A stretch of DNA of 36,733 bases, from positions 1 through 36,733 of the IMG/VR virus record IMGVR_UViG_3300023223_001433; one strand, 5' to 3'. Numbering within the stretch: position 1 is the first letter of the stretch; every line of letters starts with the position of its first letter. Both the position numbers and the translations under genes were made by a program. The notes under the pieces are model-generated. The model did no database searches. It saw only the letters and a list, made by a program, of their open reading frames with translations, and was not told the DNA's origin. This document shows, piece by piece, positions 2,474-28,861 of this stretch. The stretch is from a virus.

Positions 2474-3041
2474 GCTTTGGTGGCGGATATCTTATTTCAG
2501 AGGAAGAAAGTGGCTATGTCAATGTGACTGCGGAAATAAAGTCAAGGTACTTACAGGAGTATTGCGCTGTAATCGTACAAAATCATGTGGATGTTTAAGA
2601 GTTGAGATCATGACAAAACACGGCTATTCCGGTTCTCTGATATATCATATCTGGAGAGCAATGTTAAACAGATGCAGTAATAGCAATATATCAACATACC
2701 GACATTATGGGGGCAGGGGAATAAAAGTTTGTAAAAGGTGGCTCGATATCAAAAACTTCATTAAGGATATGGGAGAGAAGCCAGAAAACATGAGCCTTGG
2801 AAGAATAGACAATAATAAAGGATATTTCCCCAGCAATTGCAGGTGGGAGACACACACCCAGCAAGCCAATAATAAACGAACAAACAGAATGGTTGAATAT
2901 AGAGGCCAGACATTAACCGTTACTCAATGGGCAAGAAAATTGAAAATAAAATCCAATTGTTTATGGGCGCGGCTTCACAAGGGATGGAGTATGGAAAAAA
3001 CGTTAAGCACACCAATCCGTAAGCGATCTCGGAGCTATTAA
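2469..3041 (+). CDS. HNH-type free-standing endonuclease
   Basis: A 190-residue protein of a very common phage family. An N-terminal Cys motif (WLCQCDCGN, then SCGCL) is followed by YGGRGIKVCKRW, SLGRIDNNKGYFPSNCRW and a C-terminal helix module (TVTQWARKLKIKSNCLWARL) that resembles a small DNA-binding repeat. Members act as site-specific nucleases that spread into intergenic spaces. The gene lies opposite to every neighbour and overlaps the next gene's 3' end by 4 nt, as expected for an invader. The usual first block (RFGxLTV) is absent and the start is a TTG, so the 5' end may be truncated or the true start elsewhere. Confidence 0.8.
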   Translation: MPLWWRISYFRGRKWLCQCDCGNKVKVLTGVLRCNRTKSCGCLRVEIMTKHGYSGSLIYHIWRAMLNRCSNSNISTYRHYGGRGIKVCKRWLDIKNFIKDMGEKPENMSLGRIDNNKGYFPSNCRWETHTQQANNKRTNRMVEYRGQTLTVTQWARKLKIKSNCLWARLHKGWSMEKTLSTPIRKRSRSY

Positions 3042-3715
3042 TGCTCTAAATATATTGCATCTATAAGGTTCTCCTTAAAGTAAGCTGTCCCCATTCTAGC
3101 GTTTCCATGCCATCCCCACCCATCACCCCAGGAATTATGAATCCCTACATAAGCAGGTCTGTTCTCAGAGGAGCGTAAATCATAGTTGGTAATTAGGACA
3201 GCATGGCCACCCAGTGCCCGATTGTCTTCCTCGTCAATCCAGTATCCCTTGCGAAGACTATTCCATCCCCTTGTTGCTGAAAACCCGGCAATGACTGTCA
3301 TTGATTTATGCAAAGCGTGACAGACATCTTCTATCCGGGAGATATGATGAATCTTGGTATCCTCTGACATGTGCCCCAGGTTGATCCCTGCTCTTGCCAC
3401 GGACTCCAAGTAAGTCCCAGGATCATTGTTTCCATCCAATCTCTTTGCTTCTGCGTAGATCGGGTTAGGGTCAATCTGTTTACGGAATCCAGTTTCCTGC
3501 CAATTCAGAACTTCTTTGTGTCCTGTCCAGGCGTATGCGGCACAGCGAGGGCGGTCACCTTGATTGTCTGTAGGGCATACCCACCCCATGTTGTTGATAA
3601 ACTCAGGGACCTGAAAGTCCTTTGGGGTAGTAGCGGAAAACAGAGTATCTTCCTTTACGAAAAGTCCCCCTGCCTCAAAATTAGTTTGTGTCTTCAAAGC
3701 CGGGATTCCAGGCAT
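3038..3715 (-). CDS. C1 papain-like cysteine peptidase
   Basis: A 225-residue protein with the papain catalytic set: Gln52 and Cys58 in NQGDRPRCAAYA, His171 in GGHAVLITNYD and Asn194 in IHNSWGDGWGW. No N-terminal propeptide of usual length and no signal peptide is visible, so the enzyme is probably made in active form in the cytoplasm. Its place beside holin-like and lipoprotein genes suggests a role in lysis or in cutting envelope peptides; prohead processing is less likely this far from the head genes. The start at 3715 follows GGAGGAGAGGAAA; an upstream ATG at 3730 would overlap that ribosome site. Confidence 0.8.
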   Translation of the reverse strand: MPGIPALKTQTNFEAGGLFVKEDTLFSATTPKDFQVPEFINNMGWVCPTDNQGDRPRCAAYAWTGHKEVLNWQETGFRKQIDPNPIYAEAKRLDGNNDPGTYLESVARAGINLGHMSEDTKIHHISRIEDVCHALHKSMTVIAGFSATRGWNSLRKGYWIDEEDNRALGGHAVLITNYDLRSSENRPAYVGIHNSWGDGWGWHGNARMGTAYFKENLIDAIYLEH

Positions 3716-3812
3716 TTTCCTCTCCTCCATTGGTTAGTGGCGTGCTCGCACAGCCAAGCATAAAGTAAAAAACAAATAGGATGATAATTAATTCTATGAC
3801 TTTTTTAATCAT
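3681..3812 (-). CDS. Small lipoprotein, outer-membrane spanin candidate
   Basis: A 43-residue ORF. It starts with MIKK, has a hydrophobic stretch (IELIIILFVFYF) and a lipobox-like MLGC with Cys21 followed by ASTP, then a short polar tail. This is the shape of small outer-membrane lipoproteins that complete lysis in Gram-negative hosts. It begins in a TAATG overlap with the upstream lipoprotein gene, and its 3' end runs 35 nt into the papain gene in another frame. That the product is a spanin is inference from size, lipobox and position. Confidence 0.6.
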   Translation of the reverse strand: MIKKVIELIIILFVFYFMLGCASTPLTNGGEENAWNPGFEDTN

Positions 3813-4357
3813 TATTCTAGTGGTGGAGAATTAATAATAATGGTAACTGTACTATCATCACCAGTAATAACACGAACATTACTTGCTGGACCACCTTCAT
3901 CAGTGTTAGAAGCCTGAGTAGCATCTGCAGTCCTGTTCTTAAACTCAGCACAACTCTTGCCACTGGAGCCTGGTCCACAGGCATTGGACTCCCTCTGGGC
4001 AGTTTGCTTTTTGTCCCTCTTCTTACTGCCATCTATCTCATCAATGGCATAGTCAATCCCATAGCCCACAGCAGCAGCAGCCCCAAGCCTGATCAGGATA
4101 TCTTTTGTCAGAGCCCAGGTAATTCCGGCCTTATCTTCCCTGAAGGCTTGACCGAGGACTGGCCCTGTCTTCAGGAGATCGATGGAAAGGATTGCACCAC
4201 CGCGGATGGGCTGCACTTGAAAAAGGTTGTCACCGATCTTCGTTCCCTGGGTACGTAATTGGCCTCGCGTATGTTGGAGGCGTTGGTGAGTATATTGTGG
4301 GAAACAGGCAGTTGTAAGGAGAGGAATAAGTATCAGTGCAGTCAGTCTTAATCTCAT
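3812..4357 (-). CDS. Putative lipoprotein
   Basis: A 181-residue protein. It has a short signal sequence (MRLRLTALILIPLL) and a possible lipobox TTAC at residues 15-18. A Gly/Ala-rich helix (LGAAAAVGYGIDYAIDEIDG) lies near residues 91-110 and a Ser/Thr-rich C-terminus ends VTIIINSPPLE. Two further Cys (ACGPGSSGKSC) could form a disulphide. It lies between the holin-like gene (4-nt ATGA overlap) and the small lipoprotein gene (TAATG overlap), so a role in envelope disruption is likely but not shown. No family is recognised. Confidence 0.65.
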   Translation of the reverse strand: MRLRLTALILIPLLTTACFPQYTHQRLQHTRGQLRTQGTKIGDNLFQVQPIRGGAILSIDLLKTGPVLGQAFREDKAGITWALTKDILIRLGAAAAVGYGIDYAIDEIDGSKKRDKKQTAQRESNACGPGSSGKSCAEFKNRTADATQASNTDEGGPASNVRVITGDDSTVTIIINSPPLE

Positions 4358-4644
4358 GCAGCCCTTTCGCTGTTTTTGATCTCCTTTACTCGGGTGTCCA
4401 GGCGATCAACTTTGTCAGTTAGTCTTTGCAGTATGGTGTTGGTAGTATTCTGTGTTGTGTTATGACTCTGCAATATCACCTCTAATTTCTCAAAATGCAA
4501 GGAGTGAGACTCATTATTAAAATTACATTTGCCCCCTTTCCCATTCTTCTTGGAGTAAATTACAGTATAAGTTAATGCAACTGCAAGGATTCCACATACC
4601 CCTATTGTTTGTACTGCCTCAGCGATATCGTTAATCTGATCCAT
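4354..4644 (-). CDS. Holin-like membrane protein with coiled coil
   Basis: A 96-residue protein with one hydrophobic segment near residues 15-31 (GVCGILAVALTYTVIY). SKKNGKGGK follows, then a C-terminal amphipathic coil (LTDKVDRLDTRVKEI). The positive cluster right after the membrane segment suggests a cytoplasmic C-terminus, as in BhlA-like holins; an inner-membrane spanin is the alternative. The start at 4644 follows GGGGGTGG by 3 nt. An earlier in-frame ATG at 4692 lacks support. Confidence 0.6.
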   Translation of the reverse strand: MDQINDIAEAVQTIGVCGILAVALTYTVIYSKKNGKGGKCNFNNESHSLHFEKLEVILQSHNTTQNTTNTILQRLTDKVDRLDTRVKEIKNSERAA

Positions 4645-5220: not shown

Positions 5221-6804
5221 TTAAAATGGACCCGCCAATCCAGCACCCGAATCAAATAAATTCGTTGATTCCTGTTCGGTCAATAATCGATGGTGGTACG
5301 AGGGTTGATCCAGAAAACAATTGCAAGTGGTTGTTGGAATATTTGCACTATTTCCGACAAAGAATTGTGTTGAATTCCTAAACGGCTTCGTAAATACGCC
5401 TATATTTTCATCCCAAGTTCCTAAATCTGTCCTTACTCTTAAATCACTACCACTGACCTGGAACTCGACGAAATACCAAGTGCCTGTAGCAGGAGAACCT
5501 AAATTATTATTAGTCACACTTCTGAGTCCCCCGCCTGACTCTTCGGCAAAACAAACAAACCTATCGGGAGCTGGTCGATGCCCCACCAACACAGCATTTC
5601 CCGGAGAGTCGTTACCCATGAACGTCATGCTTCCGGCTTCTTTGGCTTGCATGTTGACCCAGATTGCAACGTGGATATCATTGCTGATGGGAAAGAATCT
5701 GTCTGACAAAGTATTATCATACCGCAAGTAACTATTATCTGCCCTGCTGGCCCTCAGTGCCTGTCCATTGATGCCTGTTATATTTGTTGGAGAATTAATT
5801 GCTGCCAGATCCATCATATTAATGACTGAGAAATCTTGACGAATACCTGAGTCTTCCTCAAAGGAATATGCAATTACAAGATCGTCCTGAAGGCTTGCGT
5901 TAGGTCCATCTCCGTCTGTTCGATACTTGAGATCAATAGGATCATAAATATTAACTTGCCGTTCGTTAACAGTTAGCTCTCGGTCAAAGATTATGAGTTC
6001 ATTTAGGAAAAAATAAGCTGTGTCCTCGGTTGTTGGAACTCTCTCTCCTATTTTATATAGCGTTTCCCCTCCTAACGTTGTCATGACCCCGGTCAGCGCA
6101 GTGTTGGTGATCAAGACGCCATTGGTCAGAATGCTTTTGGTTGTGCCGTCCCACAAAACTTCATAGAGATGAAAGTCATTTGTGAAATCTCCAGTCGTAA
6201 AGAATGATGGCTGACTCTCTCCACCAGTCGTATCAATGTTTATGTCTAATTGATCGACTACTGTATTTGTTATAAATATTTGTGCATCACCGGAAGAAGA
6301 TCTAAAGATATTATTCGATTCAGTTCGCAGCACTTGCATATATGCAAAGAAATGCAGAGCTGTGGCCCCGTTTAGGAAGTCTTGCATTCCAACGATACCA
6401 TTAATCGAACTACGACTACCCCTAAATGCAAATAGTGGACCCTGTTGGTTTAAAGAGCTATTATTGAACCATCTGACTACCCCATCTAGCTCTACTGCGG
6501 TCCCATCATTTGTTCCACCAAAATCTGAAAATCCAGTAATGCGTAAACCGTCAACTGTGCTGGTCTCGAATTCTGTTGCACTGGCCCAATACTGTAGGCC
6601 CGCAAGGTTTGTTGGAGAGCCAGGACCAGCAGTGCCAACACCTATAATAGAATCAATATTGGCAACAGGGATTCCCTGAATGTCTGAAGGGTTAAGCACC
6701 CCGTCAATGGTTCCTTGCCAGGCTGCCTTGCAAATAAACACAAGGAGAAACAAGGCCACCAGCACAATAGATCCCGTAATCATTTTTTCGTTTTTGTTGA
6801 TCAT
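5221..6804 (-). CDS. Membrane-anchored LamG/concanavalin-like protein
   Basis: A 527-residue protein with a hydrophobic N-terminal segment at residues 9-26 and a linker (VLNPSDIQGIPVANIDSII). Two beta-sandwich stretches of the LamG/concanavalin type follow. The first is about residues 65-290, with HLYEVLWDGTTKSILTNGV and LNELIIFDRELT. The second is about 310-525, with IAYSFEEDSG, HVAIWVNMQA, WYFVEFQVSG and YHHRLLTEQE. Such domains bind or hydrolyse glycans. The repeated pattern of strand, short sugar-facing loop and FDRxLT-type end supports the fold. It overlaps the upstream spike-like gene by 4 nt (ATGA). A virion receptor-binding or surface-display role is inferred. Confidence 0.7.
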   Translation of the reverse strand: MINKNEKMITGSIVLVALFLLVFICKAAWQGTIDGVLNPSDIQGIPVANIDSIIGVGTAGPGSPTNLAGLQYWASATEFETSTVDGLRITGFSDFGGTNDGTAVELDGVVRWFNNSSLNQQGPLFAFRGSRSSINGIVGMQDFLNGATALHFFAYMQVLRTESNNIFRSSSGDAQIFITNTVVDQLDINIDTTGGESQPSFFTTGDFTNDFHLYEVLWDGTTKSILTNGVLITNTALTGVMTTLGGETLYKIGERVPTTEDTAYFFLNELIIFDRELTVNERQVNIYDPIDLKYRTDGDGPNASLQDDLVIAYSFEEDSGIRQDFSVINMMDLAAINSPTNITGINGQALRASRADNSYLRYDNTLSDRFFPISNDIHVAIWVNMQAKEAGSMTFMGNDSPGNAVLVGHRPAPDRFVCFAEESGGGLRSVTNNNLGSPATGTWYFVEFQVSGSDLRVRTDLGTWDENIGVFTKPFRNSTQFFVGNSANIPTTTCNCFLDQPSYHHRLLTEQESTNLFDSGAGLAGPF

Positions 6805-8133: not shown

Positions 8134-11100
8134 CTAAATCTCCTTACCAAAGGCCCTTCGAGCCAAATCAATAATTTTTTCATTTAATTCATCCAGTTTT
8201 CGCCTCTTTTGATTCGGGTCCATTTTGGAAATATCTGCATCATAAGTCCTTTTCACCAAGGCCCATTGGGCTCTTAACTGTTTCTCAATCTGCTTTACTC
8301 TGGCCTCTCTGCTCCTAACCGTTCCACCAGAAATAAACTTCAATAACTTTTCTTTTCTTTCCAGTAAATCTCTTTTCTCTTCCTTTGTCGCTGTTTTGAT
8401 ACTTCTATTGAATCCTTTCATCTTTTCGCTTACTTCATAGAACCTGCGTAAGCTCTTCGAATTGCTGGCTCCTCTTGTGCTCAGGAAAGCCCGAAAGAAA
8501 GGCACAACCTCACTGATGTTTTTCTTAGGAAGAGGGGGCTTGGTTTCATCCCTGAACCACCTTAACCCTGAATCGAAGATATCCGTTCCCAACCTTCCAA
8601 GACCAGCAGTGTACCCATAAATCAAATGATCTATCTTGGCAGGAGCTATTCGAACATCTTCAGGCAAAGCATTAGAGATTGCCTTGGCTGACTCGCTAGT
8701 CCAGGGACTAAACTGTTTCTCAACCGGAAGTCCCTCATTAAATGTATTGATAATGTTTTTCTCCCTGAAGAAATCATAGTTGGCCAACACTTCTATGATA
8801 GGAAGAGCAGCAGTAGAAAGCATAAACATCATGGCATCTTCTTTTACGATACCTTTTAATCCTTCTTTTAAGTCCCTCAAGGCTTCTGGGTTTTCTCCCT
8901 CTATCTGATCTAGGACCTGGGTAACTCCATAACCAAACACAAAACCATATCCATGGGGAGATGGTATAGAAACAAATCTCCCTCCAATTTTCATAGGTAG
9001 GATATAGCGCGTGGACTTCTCCCAGTCAGGAAGCTCTTGGTATTCCTTGTCATCTTTCAGAAACCACCAGGCAAGAACCTGCGGCAATGTAATAAGCATT
9101 GCTGTCTTAATGGTTGCACCCAAGGGATCTGTCTTAAAGGTTCTGATAAACTTATCCTTGCCCTGAAGCGTTGCATTAAAGAAAGCCCTGATCTCATTGT
9201 GTTTTCTTCCCTTGATGCCAGCTCTACCGAAATCAATAGTAGATTCACGAGAAGCAAATGCAGCATAAGCATCAGCCTCTTCATCGGTCATGCCTTCAAA
9301 CAAGCCTTTCTTACGAGCTTTGGCGGCAATGCCAACACGAGTAGAGTTCTCAAAGAACTCCGAGGTAGCTGCTAAGAACTCTAAAGGTGAGGTTAGGGTA
9401 TTGCTGGCAATTCGAGAGATAGCACTTTTCCCCAGATTCTTTCTTGCCTGTTCCAGATATTTCCTATCATTGCTTAAAAAGGTAGCCTGGCTTGCTCCTG
9501 AATTTCTGAATCGTTGGTAAGTGTCTTGATTGGCTATTATGTGCAAAGCCCCAACAACCGAATCCACGAAGGGAATGAAGCCAACCTTTGTTTGAATCCC
9601 TGCTTCTATTGTATCCCTGGTAGGGTTCCTTGTAATGAATCCTATCGAAGTAGTTGCGGCAATTCTCAGTACCTTTGCCATGGCCTTCATCCAAGTGATT
9701 TGCAGGTCAGCCACTCCAGCAGGAGATCCTGTTAAAGTATTGTAAAGAAACTGATCCTGAACACGCATATATCTTCTCTTCCCATTAATCACATAGGATA
9801 TAATAGGCTCATCCATTCCATAACGACCTGGCAGATTAAACATTTCTAATATCTCTGACGATGTTTCATCTAAGATCGCTTCTCCCTTCTCGTCTACGAA
9901 GCCTTTCTTTTTCAGGATTCGAGAAAGTTCTTTTATCGTTATGTTGGTAGGTCGTGGACGTGGACCAGGGAGTCTTTCTATGAACTTACCCATGCCTTCT
10001 TGACTAGCAGCAGCATCTAGCGCTCTGTAGATTCTCTGCCTCCCCACTGCTTGAGCGATACTAAAGGTGTTCTGAATCAATGCTTCGAGAGATGGAATTG
10101 TCGCCTCGTTTCTGGTTCCTGTAAATTTAGCAAATGCCTTAGAGTTGGTTCCGGTAAAGGTTCCACCAACAGCATCATCTATGACTCGATGAAACGGAAT
10201 ATAGGCATTAGCAACTAGCTTCATGCGGATAGCTTCCTCGAAAGTAACAACACCTTCTGTTGTTGCAACAGCCAAAAGCCCATCCGTAAACTCAGCAATC
10301 TCTTTTTGAAACTCTATAAATTCTGGGAACGCAATTTCATAGCTCTTAACAGATTCCGTAGCTGCAGCAACCTCCAATTTATCTGGAATTAAATTCCGTG
10401 GAATCAAATCACTCACTTCTCTCTTTGCTTTTAGGTAGACTTCGAAGTGACTGATTAGTTTTTTCTTACGAAGCTTTTTAAAGAGACTACTCAATCCATT
10501 GTTTATCTTTGTTCCAGACAGATCTCTGATTCCATTCTGCACCCAGTTAAATCCCCTATCCTGTGCCCCTCTCTCTATGCGAAGAAGCTTGTATACATCC
10601 TTTGTCATGGTAGGAGTATTGCCTTCATACACATTCCTGGTGAACTGGAGAACTGGATAAAGGTCATCAAGCCAGTTGATAATAAACTCATCAGTCCTGG
10701 TCATATCCCTGTCTCTCTTAGGGTCCCATGCAATCGTAGCACTCATGAAGTCAATAGGATCATAGGCCAGGATTTTCCTGTATTCTGTTCTGGCAAATGC
10801 AATTGCCTCTCTCCACTGTTTGTTCTGAGCCACCGCAAAGTTAAAAGCCTTGTAGAATTGAGGAGCTGCCTGCAATAACCCTGCATCATTATTCAGGTAC
10901 AATCGAAAAAACTCAGCAATGCCCTCTCTTCTTCTCTGTGCATTATCATAACTTGGCCGAGATGTCTTTTGTCCCAATGGAATTAATTCATTATCGTAAT
11001 TATTAATATCATTGAAACCTAACTTCTTCCCCGCACCATGCCCGATCTCATGGGCAATCACCTGCATGTCAAAGGCAAGCTTTGTGCGAATGGTTTCTTC

Positions 11101-14100
11101 TCTGCGCTTAAAGATCCCCAGTGCCTTCTCTCTGAATTTTCCTACTCTGATAGGTATCTCAAATATGCGAGCTAGTTCAGGCACTAGCTCATTGAACCCT
11201 TTTCTTTTTTCGACAACCTTCTCCCTGATCTCTTTTTCTGTGAGAGGTTTTTTCTGTTGGGGTAAAGGAGTAGGGATACTCTCAGGGAAGGCGTCATGAC
11301 CATCCTCTAGGTTTATCTTCCGAGAAGAGCTACCCTCTGTAAACGCATTGGCAATGGCTGCCTCCTTGGTATTGAAGGTTCCTGGAATGCCAATGATTCT
11401 AAATTTTTCCTTACCGCCAATCTGGATAGAGCTAACCTGCTCCTCTAGCTCTGCCAGCCTTTCTGGAGATATTCCTTCGGGTAGTTTTGGCTTAGGCTTC
11501 TTGACTACTTTCTTCTTTATCTTTTCCGGTGGAGAAAACTCAACCACTTGACTCACATCAAAGATCTCTCTGATTCTCTTGATATTATCCCCCTGATTGT
11601 TCATATCAGCAAGTTGAGGAACATTTATAATAACTCCATCATGGCCGGATGCTTCCAATGATTCCCTTGCTTGTCTTAAAAGAGGAATACGTTCTTCGTT
11701 GGCAAAAGGAATATCTCGCCCACCGAATAACTCACGTAACTTTTTATCGCTATCCAGAATAAATGGATTGTCTAGTTGAATGTCTAGCTTCTCCACCTTT
11801 GGCCCAAATCCCTTGGCAACCTTTTCGCTGATAGCGGAGTAGCGAGCTTCTCCCAGTGCGTTTTCCTCTACGCCAGGCGCAAGAACGCCCTCACCTTTTT
11901 TTCTACCAAAGCCACGAAAGGTTTCAATAGAAACAGGTTGGCCTGTATTGAGGCTTCCTCCATCTTCACGGGCAAACACTTCAGGGCCAAGTTCAGCCCT
12001 CTCCTCTACCATGTCTCTTCTCAGTTCCTCTATCTGTTCTTCTGGAACATTGTTTTTCCTGGCCTCTGCAAGTAGTCCTTCAATGTTTCCTGATTGACCC
12101 ACTGTAGCTACAGCACGAACTGGCTTTGTCTCCTCTTGTTCTTTTGGTGAAATTCTTTCCTGTGGTTCTGTAAACTCACGAATGTCTTGTTCAGCGTCTT
12201 CCAGGACTTGCTCTGCTTTCCTTACTTGCTCTGTTGTAGACACAGGATTGCTGGCTACTTCAATAACGTCTGCTCTAGCTATTTCTTTTTCAGCCAGAAC
12301 AATTGCCTTGCCTGCTTCAGAGATATCCTCTGGGTCTGCATCCTCACGTTGAATCAACTCTGTGGCTTTCCCTATTTCCTCTTCTGCCTTTTGGCGAATT
12401 GTTGGAGGATCTTGTTTTGCCTTCTCCTCCCTTTCTGTTTTAACGATACTCCCAACTGGAGCTGGTCCAACAACAGGCTTGCCATCAGACAATTGTTTTA
12501 CTTGTTGTTCTGTAAAGAGCTGTGGTATTCCCACCCCTGCATGAACACTAGCCGAGACTGTTCCAAGCCCTCCCCCAACAAGTGCTCCTTTACGGAAAGC
12601 CTTATTGAGAGTTTTCTGATTTTCTGGCAATGCTAAAGCGTCAACCAGTTCATTCAGGTTTAAATCCTTTGCCCCTTTTTCGTATTGCTTAAACATCTCT
12701 GCAGCAGTCAGTGTCGTTAATTCCTGGTAGTACTCCGTAAATCCTTCAGCAAGAAAGGGAGTTGCAACCCTTCCACTGATTTGACTACCAAGCTGCAGCA
12801 TTCTCTTCAGGAGAACCTTGTTCTTCAGTAAGGAAGAAATGATTATCTTAGTACCTGAACCTTTTACAGTTCGAAGCCCAATCCCCGTAAAGCCCCTGAG
12901 AATTGTTCCAATACCCACCAGTTCCAACCCTGCGTTAAGCGCACCCACAGCAAGTGCTAAATCCTGTGAAGTATTTTTTGGTAAGCCAGAAGATAGAAAT
13001 TGCTCATAGGCTTCCCCGGTTGTCAGGTGAAATGTTTGTTCAGTTGCTCCTAGTGCTGTTCCTGTTTTAAAGCCCAAGCGAACACCCGTTCCTCCACCAG
13101 CAAGGGCACCTAGAACATTCCCAAATCCAAAACCAATAATAGTTCCAGTTGCACCTAGACCAGCAGCTCCCTGAACCCCTCTGACCACAGCCTGTTTTCC
13201 TATGCTTGCAAACAAAGGAATCTGTTCGATTATTCCCTCAACTGCTTCTCTGGGCAGTACTCTTTTCTGCTCAGGGATAAAAGGGAGCTGCAGCTTCAGG
13301 TCGGTAACTTCTCTCTCATGATCCTCCCCATAAAGAACCTCCCTGGCTCTCAGTTTGCTTATCTGGACATTCAGGCTACCCGTTTTGTAATGGGCAGCAA
13401 CGCCCTCTGGAATAGAAAGACCTTCATTGAATCGTTCCTGGTTCAGATCCAAGTTTTCTTCTATGCTCTCCAGTGCGTCCCCAAGAGAAATATTGCCAAT
13501 GTCTCTCTTTAGTCTTTGAGTCTCCAACAAAGACTGTTGCTTCAGTACTTCTGGCTGATCCTTGAAAACTCCTGACTGAACCAAAAGGCGAAGAGCTTTG
13601 TCTGTATTGGCCTGGTTGATCTTCTCCTGCCTCTTTGCAAAGACCTGTTGACGGACCTCAGCCAAAGGCTTCAAACTTGTCCTGGAGATAAATTCAAGAG
13701 CCTCCTTGAATGCTGGTGTTGCCTCTTCCTCATTGAGGTCTCTGCCTGTTCTCCTGATGTGTCCTTCTCTAATGAACCGAGAAGCCGGAACAAGTTCTTC
13801 AGCAATATCAAGGCCAGCTAAGTTCGTAGTAAACTTAAGCTCTGGATTAAAAGTAATGGCCTCACTTTCCGCAGGAGACAAAGGTCGCCTCAAGGAAATA
13901 CTGGGAACTGGCTCCAGGGTTTTTTCCCTTTTCTCCAACTCCTTGGTATTTTCCTCTGTTGCAATTCTTCGACGAGGCAAGTTAGGCGCATCTATAACGT
14001 CTTCAGGGATAGATGGGTCTACAGGACGAGGACCCGTGACAAAACCAGTAGTTGCACGCTTCACCTCCCCTTCATCTGTCAGTACCTCAAAGTCGCTAGA

Positions 14101-14175
14101 TGGTTGTGGAGAGGCGGGTTCCCTTAATGTTCTTTGCTGTAGCTGCCCAAAGAACTCTTTGTTTCCGTTAACCAT
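8134..14175 (-). CDS. Giant polyvalent virion protein (ART, zincin, LPD38-like)
   Basis: A 2013-residue protein with several domains. A charged, coiled N-terminus leads to a Gly/Ala-rich hydrophobic stretch (about residues 330-390) suited to membrane insertion and a Glu/Lys-rich coil (about 590-690). An ADP-ribosyltransferase-like domain spans about 745-880: FRGFGR, ARYSA, LDNPF, GHDGVI and QVVEFSPPEKI match the conserved ART steps. A zincin follows with HEIGH at 1042-1046 and a likely third ligand in GIAEFFRLY. The C-terminal part from about 1230 to 1720 resembles LPD38, ending with FFENSTRVGIAAKARKKG and TLPQVLAWWF. The last 200 residues are charged helices. Such proteins travel in the capsid and enter the cell with the DNA. 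The gene abuts the upstream stop exactly. Confidence 0.8.
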   Translation of the reverse strand: MVNGNKEFFGQLQQRTLREPASPQPSSDFEVLTDEGEVKRATTGFVTGPRPVDPSIPEDVIDAPNLPRRRIATEENTKELEKREKTLEPVPSISLRRPLSPAESEAITFNPELKFTTNLAGLDIAEELVPASRFIREGHIRRTGRDLNEEEATPAFKEALEFISRTSLKPLAEVRQQVFAKRQEKINQANTDKALRLLVQSGVFKDQPEVLKQQSLLETQRLKRDIGNISLGDALESIEENLDLNQERFNEGLSIPEGVAAHYKTGSLNVQISKLRAREVLYGEDHEREVTDLKLQLPFIPEQKRVLPREAVEGIIEQIPLFASIGKQAVVRGVQGAAGLGATGTIIGFGFGNVLGALAGGGTGVRLGFKTGTALGATEQTFHLTTGEAYEQFLSSGLPKNTSQDLALAVGALNAGLELVGIGTILRGFTGIGLRTVKGSGTKIIISSLLKNKVLLKRMLQLGSQISGRVATPFLAEGFTEYYQELTTLTAAEMFKQYEKGAKDLNLNELVDALALPENQKTLNKAFRKGALVGGGLGTVSASVHAGVGIPQLFTEQQVKQLSDGKPVVGPAPVGSIVKTEREEKAKQDPPTIRQKAEEEIGKATELIQREDADPEDISEAGKAIVLAEKEIARADVIEVASNPVSTTEQVRKAEQVLEDAEQDIREFTEPQERISPKEQEETKPVRAVATVGQSGNIEGLLAEARKNNVPEEQIEELRRDMVEERAELGPEVFAREDGGSLNTGQPVSIETFRGFGRKKGEGVLAPGVEENALGEARYSAISEKVAKGFGPKVEKLDIQLDNPFILDSDKKLRELFGGRDIPFANEERIPLLRQARESLEASGHDGVIINVPQLADMNNQGDNIKRIREIFDVSQVVEFSPPEKIKKKVVKKPKPKLPEGISPERLAELEEQVSSIQIGGKEKFRIIGIPGTFNTKEAAIANAFTEGSSSRKINLEDGHDAFPESIPTPLPQQKKPLTEKEIREKVVEKRKGFNELVPELARIFEIPIRVGKFREKALGIFKRREETIRTKLAFDMQVIAHEIGHGAGKKLGFNDINNYDNELIPLGQKTSRPSYDNAQRRREGIAEFFRLYLNNDAGLLQAAPQFYKAFNFAVAQNKQWREAIAFARTEYRKILAYDPIDFMSATIAWDPKRDRDMTRTDEFIINWLDDLYPVLQFTRNVYEGNTPTMTKDVYKLLRIERGAQDRGFNWVQNGIRDLSGTKINNGLSSLFKKLRKKKLISHFEVYLKAKREVSDLIPRNLIPDKLEVAAATESVKSYEIAFPEFIEFQKEIAEFTDGLLAVATTEGVVTFEEAIRMKLVANAYIPFHRVIDDAVGGTFTGTNSKAFAKFTGTRNEATIPSLEALIQNTFSIAQAVGRQRIYRALDAAASQEGMGKFIERLPGPRPRPTNITIKELSRILKKKGFVDEKGEAILDETSSEILEMFNLPGRYGMDEPIISYVINGKRRYMRVQDQFLYNTLTGSPAGVADLQITWMKAMAKVLRIAATTSIGFITRNPTRDTIEAGIQTKVGFIPFVDSVVGALHIIANQDTYQRFRNSGASQATFLSNDRKYLEQARKNLGKSAISRIASNTLTSPLEFLAATSEFFENSTRVGIAAKARKKGLFEGMTDEEADAYAAFASRESTIDFGRAGIKGRKHNEIRAFFNATLQGKDKFIRTFKTDPLGATIKTAMLITLPQVLAWWFLKDDKEYQELPDWEKSTRYILPMKIGGRFVSIPSPHGYGFVFGYGVTQVLDQIEGENPEALRDLKEGLKGIVKEDAMMFMLSTAALPIIEVLANYDFFREKNIINTFNEGLPVEKQFSPWTSESAKAISNALPEDVRIAPAKIDHLIYGYTAGLGRLGTDIFDSGLRWFRDETKPPLPKKNISEVVPFFRAFLSTRGASNSKSLRRFYEVSEKMKGFNRSIKTATKEEKRDLLERKEKLLKFISGGTVRSREARVKQIEKQLRAQWALVKRTYDADISKMDPNQKRRKLDELNEKIIDLARRAFGKEI

Positions 14176-25093: not shown

Positions 25094-27285
25094 GGCCTTG
25101 GTGCGTTACTAATAGCAGTGCCCCGTACACTCCTGTTTGGTGCTATGTCAGGTTGTGGTGCTGCAAGCTGTGCATTGACTTGCGTCTGATCTCGGGTGGT
25201 GTCTGTGATAGGTCCTTCCTGTCCAGGGATAGTCACCCCTTGCTCCTGCTCTGCAAGAATGTCCAGGAAATCAAAGTGTTGTGCTTGGTGACGGCCATGG
25301 AAGGCAGTAACCTCATCAGGGTTAGCAGCCATCCATGCTTCATGGGAGCGAATCTCTACTTCATGGTCATCACTCTCATCTGCATCAAACATCTGCATGG
25401 TCAACAACAGATTCTCCGTGAGAACCTTCCTCTTTGTCTCTGCACGGGTATTGGGACTCCTGATGATCTGGTCAGGGTCCGGTTGTCCCAGGGCTCTCCA
25501 GAGAAGTTTCAGGACTGGCACTGGATCAAACTCAGGAATGTTCTGACCAATATTAAGAACGTTCACAAGGTTCTGAACCTGCAAGGTTCTGTTCTGCATG
25601 GTGCGAACTCCCAGGGGAACCACGTCCACTGTCTGAAACCCATAGAAGTCATCAGGGGTTACCTCAACAAAAACCGGTGGCCTCACATGCGGGTCAGTAA
25701 TGCGAACAGTTCTCTTCTCATCAAAGAATTGCTGGGCATACTCCAACCCTGTCAAGATGACTTTTTCTACTACTTCAATCTCCAAACCAAAGGAATAAAG
25801 ATTGAACCGTTTGCTGGCTTCCTCAAAGGCGATAGAGAAATTAGTAGCAGCAACATTGGAAGCCTTCCCCACCTTGGGATCTGTGGCCCCAGAAGACTCC
25901 CTTGCTCGCTGACTCAGGAACTCAATCATAGACAATGACGATCCAGTTAGATCGGGCACGCCCAAAGGCATGATGACCTCCTTGGGGTTTCCGTCTGTCC
26001 CAATTTTTTTAAACTGGTTAAAGATGAAGTCCTGGGAAACATTGTCCAGGCGGTTCACGTCAACAGCCCACATATTACACATCGCTGCAGTTACATTATC
26101 AATGTGCTGATTGATCCTGTCACTGATTGCGCGGAACCAACTCTTTGCTACATCAAAGATTCCAATCCCATAAACAGAATCTTCATTCCTGATCCACTGG
26201 GCATGGATGATCGGTTTGGTCTTATTGTCGAAAGGATTCTTTCGGAAATAGATAATGAAATTGTTAACCATCCAGACCTGAACTTGCTCCCGCTCTCCCG
26301 TTACAATATTGTCATTTACTTCCTGGGCCTTGTTGGAAGAAGGAAGGTCGCTCCAGCCCCACCACTCCCAGAGGGTAAAGGTGTTTCTCTGATTGGCCAG
26401 GTTCTCAAACTGGGTATCGTCTGGGATGCCACGCTTCTCATCCCGGAAGGGGGACTTGCTCACCTCTGTGTCAAAGTCTCCACCAGCTTCAAAGATTTCA
26501 TCCAGGTGAAGCAGGCCAAGAAGTTCCTCTTTGCCTTTCAGCCACTCTGCACTGACCTCATGACGATACACCTGATCAGCAGCCTGGATATCTTTCATAC
26601 GTGGTTCTACGTAGACATCCTCGATAGGGAAAGACTGGATATCAAAGCCATCGTAAACCGTTCTCTCCTTGGTTATCCTTTGAATCTCAAAGGTCATGGC
26701 TGGTTCACCATTCTCCTCCAGGACTGGAAGACCATCCTGATCAATCAAGGGAACCTCTACTTTTTCCTTGGCTGTCCTGACTTCTCTCCTGAAATCCCAG
26801 GAGAACTTCGCAAAGGCAGTTCCGTAGATGGCTCTATTCCTGACAAACGTTTCCATCTTCTCCACATACTTGGCTTCCTGGAAAAGAACTGAAAGAGCTT
26901 TCTTTTGAAGTTCAGCAGTCTCCTCATCCACTTCCCCGGTACGTCCCCTCATATCAAACCAGTTCTGTCTATCGGGAAAGACTGTCTGATACTGGTCACT
27001 GACAACCGCTTCTACGATTCTATGGAACTCCAAGTCCCTTACATCTGAACGGCCTTTGTAGTTCTTTTCCCGCTGGGCTGAGATAGCCCGGAAAGCTTTG
27101 GCATCACTGGTCCATCGGTCATTCAGGTTCTCTGGATAAAAGTCTACATTGCGGGTAGCTCGACCTATCTCTACGTCCGAAATAAAGGTTCTCATCTTAT
27201 GGGAAAACTGACTATCAAACTCATCGTTGACACCAGCCAGGTTTGTTCCGTCTGTAATTCGTACTGTTGTTTCTTTAATCGCCAT
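25090..27285 (-). CDS. Portal protein
   Basis: A 731-residue protein; its size and order match the large portal proteins of podoviruses of the P22/SU10 type. A charged N-terminal part is followed by a central helical region (FVRNRAIYGTAFAKFSWDFR; NQHIDNVTAAMCNMWAVDVN) and a polar C-terminal part with a Gln/Asp-rich tail. It forms the dodecameric ring through which DNA enters and leaves. The start at 27285 is fixed by a TAATG overlap with the terminase nuclease gene; an extension upstream would read into that gene. Confidence 0.75.
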   Translation of the reverse strand: MAIKETTVRITDGTNLAGVNDEFDSQFSHKMRTFISDVEIGRATRNVDFYPENLNDRWTSDAKAFRAISAQREKNYKGRSDVRDLEFHRIVEAVVSDQYQTVFPDRQNWFDMRGRTGEVDEETAELQKKALSVLFQEAKYVEKMETFVRNRAIYGTAFAKFSWDFRREVRTAKEKVEVPLIDQDGLPVLEENGEPAMTFEIQRITKERTVYDGFDIQSFPIEDVYVEPRMKDIQAADQVYRHEVSAEWLKGKEELLGLLHLDEIFEAGGDFDTEVSKSPFRDEKRGIPDDTQFENLANQRNTFTLWEWWGWSDLPSSNKAQEVNDNIVTGEREQVQVWMVNNFIIYFRKNPFDNKTKPIIHAQWIRNEDSVYGIGIFDVAKSWFRAISDRINQHIDNVTAAMCNMWAVDVNRLDNVSQDFIFNQFKKIGTDGNPKEVIMPLGVPDLTGSSLSMIEFLSQRARESSGATDPKVGKASNVAATNFSIAFEEASKRFNLYSFGLEIEVVEKVILTGLEYAQQFFDEKRTVRITDPHVRPPVFVEVTPDDFYGFQTVDVVPLGVRTMQNRTLQVQNLVNVLNIGQNIPEFDPVPVLKLLWRALGQPDPDQIIRSPNTRAETKRKVLTENLLLTMQMFDADESDDHEVEIRSHEAWMAANPDEVTAFHGRHQAQHFDFLDILAEQEQGVTIPGQEGPITDTTRDQTQVNAQLAAPQPDIAPNRSVRGTAISNAPRP

Positions 27286-28124
27286 TACCAATGACTCCCT
27301 TCTTGTTGTTTGTATTCGCGAGTTGGAATTCCATCCTTGGGCCTGTACTTGGGCTTGGCACACACAATGCCGCCCAGGCAATCAATCAAATCATCGTTCT
27401 CTTTCTGGATCTTGCTCTTCTTGTCGTAACACCAGTGGTTCAGTTGCCAGATCAGCTTTTGACACTTATCGCTGATCAGAAGGCGAGGGCCATTGTATTT
27501 CCCATCAAAAGCCAGGCATTTCCTGATCTCATTGATTCGAGGGGTATCATGCTTTTGCCACTGCTCTGTCCTGATTCCGTATTGCTGGAACTGGTCTTGA
27601 ATAGATTTCTTATTCTCAGAGCCCTTCTTTCCCTGAACAGCCTGGGGCTCAATCATGTTTCTCCTGGGCTTGCCACCCCACTTCTTATAGTTTGAACGCA
27701 GGCGTGCTGCCATCTTGTAGGAGTCCGTCTCAATGAACTCATTAAAGATATAAATTCGGTCCCTTGTATCTACCTTAGCGGCCAGGGCAAAGAAATCCTT
27801 TACTGGATGGGTGTCTATGCCTGTGTAGGTTGTCCAATCAAGGACGTGGATATTGCTGGGATGGAAGACCTCATCATGGGGAAAGACATGCATCCACTCC
27901 ATGCCCTCTGACAGTTCGCTTCGGAATTCCTTAAAGATCTTTCCGGCCAGGAAGGCAAAATAGCCATACCTTCTAGCCTTACGCTCATCAAAGGGAGTGG
28001 CCTCCTCCATCTCTTTAACCTGATCGATATCCAGGATACCCCGAACTCCTGCAGGGGAATTGTAGCAATTCTGATCCTGTGAGCAGGTGATAAGATCCCA
28101 TTTTTTGAGATAGTGAAAAGCCAT
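27285..28124 (-). CDS. Large terminase, nuclease part
   Basis: A 279-residue protein that corresponds to the C-terminal nuclease half of large terminases. After a linker (ITCSQDQNCYNSPAGVRGIL) and a helix ending RRYGYFAFLAGKIFKEF, the RNase H-like nuclease follows with VLDWTTYTGIDTHPVKDFF, where the Asp residues are the likely metal ligands, and DDLIDCLGGIV near residue 246. It cuts concatemeric DNA during packaging. It begins in a TAATG overlap with the ATPase gene. A -1 frameshift at the junction would give one chain of normal length; translation as two subunits is the alternative. Confidence 0.75.
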   Translation of the reverse strand: MAFHYLKKWDLITCSQDQNCYNSPAGVRGILDIDQVKEMEEATPFDERKARRYGYFAFLAGKIFKEFRSELSEGMEWMHVFPHDEVFHPSNIHVLDWTTYTGIDTHPVKDFFALAAKVDTRDRIYIFNEFIETDSYKMAARLRSNYKKWGGKPRRNMIEPQAVQGKKGSENKKSIQDQFQQYGIRTEQWQKHDTPRINEIRKCLAFDGKYNGPRLLISDKCQKLIWQLNHWCYDKKSKIQKENDDLIDCLGGIVCAKPKYRPKDGIPTREYKQQEGSHW

Positions 28125-28861
28125 TACATTAAAAACTTGGGTTTGTCCTGGAAGACACCATCTTCTTCCATCATGTTATAAATAAAGCCAGCTTCATGGA
28201 GTGGGGTGAAAAAGCAGTAGATATATCCACCTTGCCGGAACCGCTGAATTGTCTCTCCCCAGATGTCTTGGCGGGGAGGTTCATCCATCAGGCAAGCGTC
28301 CAGGGTAGCACCGGCGAACTCGCCAATGTCTTGCTCATAAGTCATAAGATCCAGGATAGAGCCATTGTCAGCTTCCCAGATAAAGTCAAAAGACTTCTTT
28401 TCTTTGCGCGTAGTATATCTACCTTTAGGAAACCACTTCCTTAATTCCTCGTTGATGGGTCCTGATATATTACTTGGGGTACCGATGATTCGGATACGGG
28501 CAGGTTTGCGCATATCGCGGAAGCGGCGATTATCAAACCAGATATTCTGAGGACCAAACATGAGATTGCCAGCAATGTTGGCAAGAGAACAGGTCTTCTG
28601 GGTTCCATTGCCACCAGCATAGACGACATACCTGGCCTCTGACTGAATCACCATCTGGGCCTGGCCATTGGGAACAAAGGCTATCAGGGGATTGAGTTCA
28701 ATCAAGTTCCGGTAATAGAGAATCTTCTCGCAGATATCTTCTTGCTCTGCACGAGACATATCCTCAAAACGAGGACAATTAGCTTCTCGGGTATACTCGA
28801 AATACCGATCTATGATGAATTCGTTATCCGGCTTCGGGGACGGCGAGAGGGGAGTTACCAT
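28124..28861 (-). CDS. Large terminase, ATPase part
   Basis: A 245-residue protein with the packaging ATPase motor. A Walker A motif lies at about residue 84 (AGGNGTQKT), a Walker B at about 186-195 (LDACLMDEPP) and a coupling-type motif near 220 (CFFTPLHEAG). The usual Gly before the Walker Lys is Gln here, an unusual substitution. It has no nuclease domain because the reading frame ends at 28124, where the nuclease gene begins. Together they total about 524 residues, a normal length for TerL. Confidence 0.75.
   Translation of the reverse strand: MVTPLSPSPKPDNEFIIDRYFEYTREANCPRFEDMSRAEQEDICEKILYYRNLIELNPLIAFVPNGQAQMVIQSEARYVVYAGGNGTQKTCSLANIAGNLMFGPQNIWFDNRRFRDMRKPARIRIIGTPSNISGPINEELRKWFPKGRYTTRKEKKSFDFIWEADNGSILDLMTYEQDIGEFAGATLDACLMDEPPRQDIWGETIQRFRQGGYIYCFFTPLHEAGFIYNMMEEDGVFQDKPKFLM

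Follow-up and report, generated by a model that had tools for sequence, protein, structure and literature searches.

Phage-type polyvalent proteins, as described by Iyer et al. in 2017 (PMC5512222), carry several unrelated enzymatic domains in one protein encoded in the late region, with an LPD38 domain near the C-terminus. Zincin peptidases and ADP-ribosyltransferases (ARTs) are among their cargo, fusions of an ART with a peptidase have already been reported, and the separation of cargo from carrier is one of the roles proposed there for the peptidase. The polyvalent ARTs were defined by a His on strand 1, a Tyr on strand 2 and an Asp on strand 5 (PMC5512222). In purified virions, 51 unique peptides were detected of one LPD38 homologue, gp69 of Burkholderia phage JC1, a protein of 4515 amino acids in which LPD38 occupies 4195-4401 (PMC9144972). 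Once ejected, gp16 of T7, which carries a transglycosylase, is believed to cross the inner membrane (PMC8954989). Here we describe a 2013-residue protein of this general kind, the product of gene P0001 in a virus contig of 36,733 bases (IMG/VR record IMGVR_UViG_3300023223_001433), the whole of which is called the window below. Its C-terminal portion is a conserved core that recurs in many phages, a zincin-fold domain stands ahead of that core at a nearly constant distance, and a divergent ART-like domain lies further towards the N-terminus, so that two unrelated enzymatic folds, whose activities are predicted, share one open reading frame (ORF). Systems of this kind are known; the ART subclass and the measured layout of carrier, cutter and cargo are new. 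On balance, we think it probable that this LPD38 podovirus-like protein is packaged and ejected, and that it consists of a carrier core, a zincin that processes its own polypeptide, and an ART as cargo.

The gene and its C-terminal carrier core

The reading frame is found on the minus strand only, a strand that the initial annotation did not name, with an ATG start and its stop codon included, and the plus strand over the same positions is full of stops and holds no such frame. A Pfam scan of the complete protein recognised LPD38 alone, at 110 bits against a cut-off of 27, and so bore out the view of the initial annotation, made from the letters of the sequence, that this is a polyvalent protein. 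The core to which LPD38 belongs is much larger, approximately 870 residues, and aligns at 20-27% identity with proteins of podovirus-like phages, the sources being Vibrio, Pelagibacter, Bacillus, Escherichia and environmental phages; its wider occurrence (Table 1) was established by tblastn. In two Pelagibacter phages, HTVC034P and Lederberg, as well as in ct8d5349, the core is encoded downstream of the genes for tail tubular proteins A and B and for an “internal virion protein”, with the tail fibre gene coming next. Since its homologue JC1 gp69 was found in virions, the 2013-residue protein is by analogy likely to be packaged as well, and the gene order, together with that published virion-associated homologue, makes its entry into the host plausible. 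The model of the core had no significant fold match in the PDB, a null result that is no evidence of a new fold. In another Pelagibacter phage, HTVC010P (locus L085, 5979-10796; related loci are given L numbers here), the annotation shows a series of smaller ORFs (gp16-gp20) in the slot of the large gene; of these, gp20 (504 amino acids), the sole one tested, is a fragment of the core.

Table 1. Features of gene P0001 and its product (positions are those of the window)
Feature	Residues	Position	Strand	Basis
Whole gene P0001, polyvalent protein	1-2013	8134..14175	minus	ORF; Pfam LPD38; PHROG 9854, E 6.9e-70
Gly/Ala-rich, weakly hydrophobic, helical-looking region with EGFTEYYQE (477-485); candidate ejection or membrane part	310-560	12496..13248	minus	hydropathy; recurring motif
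Divergent ADP-ribosyltransferase-fold domain	740-890	11506..11958	minus	AlphaFold2 model; fold matches; homologues; L074 over the PF18760 cut-off
Strand-1 position (His in ART-PolyVal)	Arg754	11914..11916	minus	invariant in alignment A3; R in 7/9 rows of alignment A9
Strand-2 position	Tyr779	11839..11841	minus	invariant in all aligned copies
Start of last strand (QVVEF)	Gln876	11548..11550	minus	invariant in A3; Q in 7/9 rows of A9
Zincin-fold metallopeptidase domain (predicted)	972-1120	10816..11262	minus	AlphaFold2 model; VIA-align Z 9.3 over 142 residues; hidden Markov model match, E 0.0056
HEIGH, predicted zinc ligands and general base	1042-1046	11038..11052	minus	conservation in 22 rows
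EGIAEF, predicted third zinc ligand, second helix	1084-1089	10909..10926	minus	conservation in 22 rows
Conserved C-terminal carrier core	1140-2013	8137..10758	minus	alignment with eight phage proteins; 152 phage records; BFVD structure matches
Pfam LPD38	1709-1881	8533..9051	minus	E 1.9e-31

The ADP-ribosyltransferase-like domain

The ART region of the protein matched nothing in the libraries, the Pfam family ART-PolyVal (PF18760) included, and its homologues were reached through relatives of the zincin first and then by profile. The profile search revealed that the ART blocks recur in at least 10 distinct phage or prophage proteins, the closest copy being that of L056 (46-49% identical). An AlphaFold2 (AF2) model of residues 684-914 had a mean predicted local distance difference test score (pLDDT) of 71.6, with values of 75-92 in most blocks of the domain core, and nearly all of the structure matches listed for it belonged to the ART superfamily: NatT, MbcT, ParT, PARP1, PARP2, PARP4, tankyrases, diphtheria toxin and the anti-CRISPR 6kyf, at Z values of 4-7.5. 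The model also matched residues 1418-1594 of chain 9k3a_B from the pre-ejectosome of cyanophage A4, a chain identical to ORF27 of Anabaena phage A-4L, which has the blocks YHGT and GTYF at its ART-like region; an ART-like domain thus sits in the solved ejection assembly of another phage. A link by sequence was provided by two relatives, as the ART copy in L074 exceeds the ART-PolyVal cut-off (31.9 against 31.2 bits) and that in L057 reaches E 1.3e-3, below the cut-off. Z values under 8 are modest when taken alone, but the uniformity of the match list and the sequence link through L074 and L057 support an ART fold for residues 740-890.

Other approaches contributed little. Pattern searches of IMG/VR with the whole protein and the ART segment, tblastn searches of phages and plasmids with the ART segment, and PDB sequence searches, run for the full-length protein as well as for the ART region and its profile, all returned nothing useful. 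When the ART alignment was compared, profile against profile, with four sequences of the ART-PolyVal type, the match was weak (a probability of 15% over 60 columns), though in a sensible register. A match of the ART profile to A-4L proteins and a Pfam ParB match in L027 both fell below significance and were set aside.

The sequence blocks that the initial annotation had read as a full ART set are all present at the residues it gave (FRGFGR 753-758, ARYSA 777-781, LDNPF 801-805, GHDGVI 844-849 and VVEFSPPEKI 877-886), although the set is not full in the polyvalent sense, as the defining His and Asp are absent. The strand-1 position is held by Arg754, and among the nine aligned copies those without Arg have His (L057) or Gln (L074); the last strand, QVVEFS, has no conserved Asp, and the position varies among S, A, K, D, N and E in the homologues. 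The Arg-Ser-Glu triad of Alt and VIP2 is not present either, Tyr being the residue at the strand-2 position. Four residues, Y779, N803, P804 and D846, are invariant in alignment A9 at identities of 26-43%. Because of Arg754 at strand 1 and the lack of a strand-5 Asp, we have not filed the protein under ART-PolyVal, though the fold appears to be shared with that family, and the third catalytic role might fall to Q876 or E879. This R-Y type of ART is one of the new parts and, if read correctly, adds to the phage ART-fold enzymes a subfamily that goes unrecognised by the family models now in use.

What such a domain would do is a further matter. Under the reading we prefer it would modify a host molecule, and it is rather doubtful, in our estimation, that it is instead a NAD+-consuming enzyme or an anti-defence ART, nearer to the RES-type toxins or to the anti-CRISPR 6kyf. 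In the ranking of the AF2 model the RES-type proteins NatT (Z 7.5) and MbcT (Z 6.7) are near-tied with the A4 domain (6.2) and with PARPs (PARP2, 5.6), some of these values being partly tied, the best Foldseek match was 6kyf, and an Arg at strand 1 with a Tyr at strand 2 is unlike H-Y-D. Against this, the ranking does not separate the RES-type NAD+ toxins, the PARPs and the A4 domain, and homologues of the domain match ART-PolyVal by sequence; for that clade, modification of host proteins has been postulated (PMC5512222).

The zincin, its cargo and the proposed mechanism

The zincin domain was likewise without a Pfam match, and its recognition began with the motif HEIGH and the GIAEFF (1085-1090) downstream, both of which lie where the initial annotation had placed them. 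An HExxH arises in 1% of shuffles of the protein, yet in none of 20,000 shuffles was it followed 20-70 residues downstream by EGxAEF; the pairing is beyond chance. Seven residues, H1042, E1043, H1046, E1084, G1085, A1087 and E1088, are invariant in 22/22 aligned zincin rows. In the AF2 model of residues 960-2013, for which 22 sequences were used and whose mean pLDDT is 71.8 (roughly 70-90 within the zincin itself), an N-terminal helix (model positions 21-46) is succeeded by three short strands (50-52, 61-64 and 69-72), HEIGH falls at 83-87 within a helix spanning 78-93, and E1084 and E1088 lie in a second helix at 119-136, a layout that matches the one described for polyvalent peptidases (PMC5512222). 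VIA-align placed the model on zincins of the lethal-factor and PPEP types, with, besides the match in Table 1, one of Z 9.1 at 3.0 Å over 120 residues and one to PPEP-1 at Z 7.6, and the hidden Markov model search independently matched the catalytic domain of lethal factor, the same match as was reported for the N4-type polyvalent peptidase. Together these results support a zincin fold, and with it a predicted metallopeptidase, at residues 972-1120. Both folds suspected in the initial annotation were accordingly recovered in the models, an ART fold that covers residues 745-880 and a zincin fold with predicted zinc ligands, and neither of the outcomes that the annotation had named as refuting it was seen at the level of fold.

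Measured in more than 50 HExxH-bearing relatives, the spacing between that motif and a set reference point in the core stays within 276-332 amino acids, mostly 281-304, whereas the length ahead of the zincin runs from about 560 to 2,890 amino acids (one truncated contig aside); in two other relatives, variants of the form HExxxH stand 355-361 amino acids ahead of the core anchor. Most of these proteins had been collected through the zincin, and a second set of 13 intact proteins was therefore chosen by the core alone. In this set, HExxH or HExxxH was present upstream of the core in all seven proteins with long cargo (Vibrio phage vB_ValP_FGH, here FGH, and VvAW1, 1.232.O, PTXU04, CF418P1, K250 and Pra-JY27) and in none of the six short ones (HTVC034P, ct8d5349, Palmer, Lederberg, Pascal and HTVC033P), a split whose chance by simple counting is 1 in 1,716, for lineages that are not independent. 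Because the zincin is fixed beside the core and its motif is absent from short relatives, self-processing is better supported, on this comparison of sequences, than a role as a host-directed effector, and the host-directed protease of the initial annotation has become the less likely proposition.

The cargo itself differs from one relative to the next: a methylase and a helicase in VvAW1, 1.232.O and L068, a GGDEF domain and an ART in L056, two ARTs and a RadC in L074, and an ART in the 2013-residue protein. The core tree joined our protein to L010 with a support of 100, and a grouping of it with L056 was rejected (p-AU 0.0002). Its ART is nevertheless 48% identical to that of L056 and 31-35% identical to that of L010; in the ART tree, which is weak, the pairing with L010 was not rejected (p-AU 0.2), and an exchange of ART modules between carriers is thus suggested only.

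Several of the relatives merit a description of their own. The two ART-PolyVal-type domains of L074 (3953-4438 and 5015-5500) lie, with its RadC-like domain, ahead of the same core. L068 (3-9872), a contig of a Myxococcales metagenome-assembled genome, encodes a 3290-residue LPD38 protein with an ART, a helicase and an N6-methylase; the strand-1 residue of this ART is Gln, and a second block, YQGSGT, comes after it, perhaps an ART repeat. L063 (5932-6297) and L069, from a contig of Quisquiliibacterium transsilvanicum, hold a prophage-like ART copy of which the first half alone matches and the rest looks decayed.

The course of events that we propose begins with a gene expressed alongside the virion genes, the product of which would probably become part of the virion and leave it together with the DNA. 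Carried by its core, the protein would reach the virion and later pass the entry machinery; the zincin would then sever the chain, either while it is still in the head or following entry, and thereby release the cargo, and the ART would draw on NAD+ to alter a host molecule in early infection. The computations show the domains, their folds, the conserved key residues and the constant position of the zincin; packaging, self-cleavage, the use of NAD+ and the host target are inferred. A number of points weigh against such a course. Packaging, ejection and cleavage are proposed for the 2013-residue protein on indirect grounds, and the virion RNA polymerase of N4, also with such a peptidase, is packaged uncut (PMC5512222). 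Few of the lineages behind the contrast between long-cargo and short proteins are independent. In the former, the zincin profile missed five of the seven motifs (four HExxxH and one HEAVH), and in Achromobacter phage CF418P1 the spacing appears larger. The ART, which lacks the H-Y-D of its nearest family, could be inactive or have another chemistry, and the confidence of its model is moderate at that mean pLDDT, with no fold match above Z 8.

It is nonetheless unlikely, as we see it, that both enzymes are directed at the host, the zincin cutting host proteins and the ART modifying them soon after entry. Both folds are real, the nearest solved zincin folds belong to host-cutting or secreted proteases (lethal factor and PPEP-1), and host targeting is among the options considered in PMC5512222, but a free effector need not keep its position, as this zincin does beside the core in the relatives examined, and the motif is absent from proteins that have no long cargo. 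A third reading takes the two domains for structural remnants, their catalysis lost, within an ejection protein that serves DNA delivery. It would suit the absent His and Asp of ART-PolyVal, the seemingly decayed C-terminal half of the Quisquiliibacterium prophage copy, and a gene slot and membrane-like segments that fit an ejection protein, but it is highly improbable in the face of the four invariant ART residues and of an HExxH and EGxAE invariant in 22 zincins, which speak of active sites under selection.

If the packaged carrier with its own cutter is indeed what this protein is, then phages have a standard carrier by which exchangeable enzymes are injected right at the start of infection, and the role of the peptidase in polyvalent proteins becomes directly testable. 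A broader proposition is possible, though we put it forward tentatively: that LPD38 marks a general delivery platform, composed of the core, a fixed self-cutting zincin that is kept only with cargo, and interchangeable enzymes, the enzyme here being an unrecognised R-Y ART or NAD+-consumer that moves between carriers as a module.

Flanking regions and comparison with known systems

Ahead of the enzymatic domains, residues 310-560 had no significant sequence match beyond a motif of the EGxxExxQE type, which is also present in L018, L020, L027, L057 and FGH. Because that motif recurs in several relatives, the region may be a common ejection element. The Gly/Ala-rich stretch at 330-390, for which the initial annotation had proposed insertion into the membrane, exists, and its hydropathy argues only faintly for such an insertion, the best 19-residue mean being 1.39 (340-358) compared with 1.71 at 408-426.

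The polyvalent gene is encoded among virion and packaging genes. Upstream on the same strand are genes that match phrog_1216 (portal protein, E 1.5e-33) and phrog_1328 (major head protein, E 1.4e-20), with weak terminase matches further upstream, and downstream, also on the same strand, is a gene for a 527-residue lectin-domain protein (5221-6804, minus; laminin-G/concanavalin-like, E 7.5e-13), the product of which is likely the receptor-binding tail fibre. No homologues of the immediate neighbours were detected, and since none of the 38 other proteins of the window that were tested had a BLASTP match in the set of related loci compared, the phage is a very divergent one, with the polyvalent gene as its one recognisable link to those loci. 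The large subunit of the terminase seems to be divided over two ORFs with a one-base overlap (27285-28861, minus), matched by phrog_2 on 28124-28861 (E 0.007) and by Terminase_6C on 27285-28124 (E 0.013), and appears to represent a split gene, a frameshift or a sequencing error. At the end of the late region are an enoyl-CoA hydratase-like gene (1761-2456, minus; phrog_1128, E 3.7e-8) and a peptidase gene (3038-3730, minus; phrog_16701, E 7.2e-13), and a gene for tRNA-Thr (TGT) lies at 1377-1450 on the plus strand.

Set beside the polyvalent proteins of PMC5512222, the 2013-residue protein differs in its R-Y ART, which has no Pfam match, and in a placement of the zincin relative to the core that has been measured and is nearly constant. 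With ART-PolyVal (PF18760, of the Tox-ART-HYD2 clade) it has in common the fold, the order of the blocks and the Tyr kept at strand 2; it departs from that family in its Arg for His, in the missing strand-5 Asp, and in that the protein itself has no Pfam ART match. JC1 gp69 (PMC9144972) and the DarB-like proteins of Vibrio phage VvAW1 likewise have LPD38 close to the C-terminal end and, at the N-terminus, enzymes that vary, and in VvAW1 the zincin is at a nearly equal spacing from the core, but their cargo is methylase and helicase (with a lytic transglycosylase-like domain in addition in JC1) rather than ART. A-4L ORF27 resembles our protein in its very large size, its corresponding place in the gene order and its ART-like domain, and it is part of a solved pre-ejectosome, although it has no detectable similarity to the LPD38 core and no HExxH, and its ART keeps both His and Tyr. 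T7 gp16 is comparable for its corresponding slot in relatives, its large size, its N-terminal enzyme and its membrane-like segments (PMC8954989), though that enzyme is a transglycosylase instead of an ART or a zincin; homology to it was not found, as the core had no significant PDB match, which does not exclude homology. Finally, Alt of T4 is the product of a separate gene and has an R-S-E active site, in place of which our protein has a Tyr at strand 2, but as an ART that is packaged, injected and modifies the host RNA polymerase (PMC5512222), it is the model for the action that we propose here.

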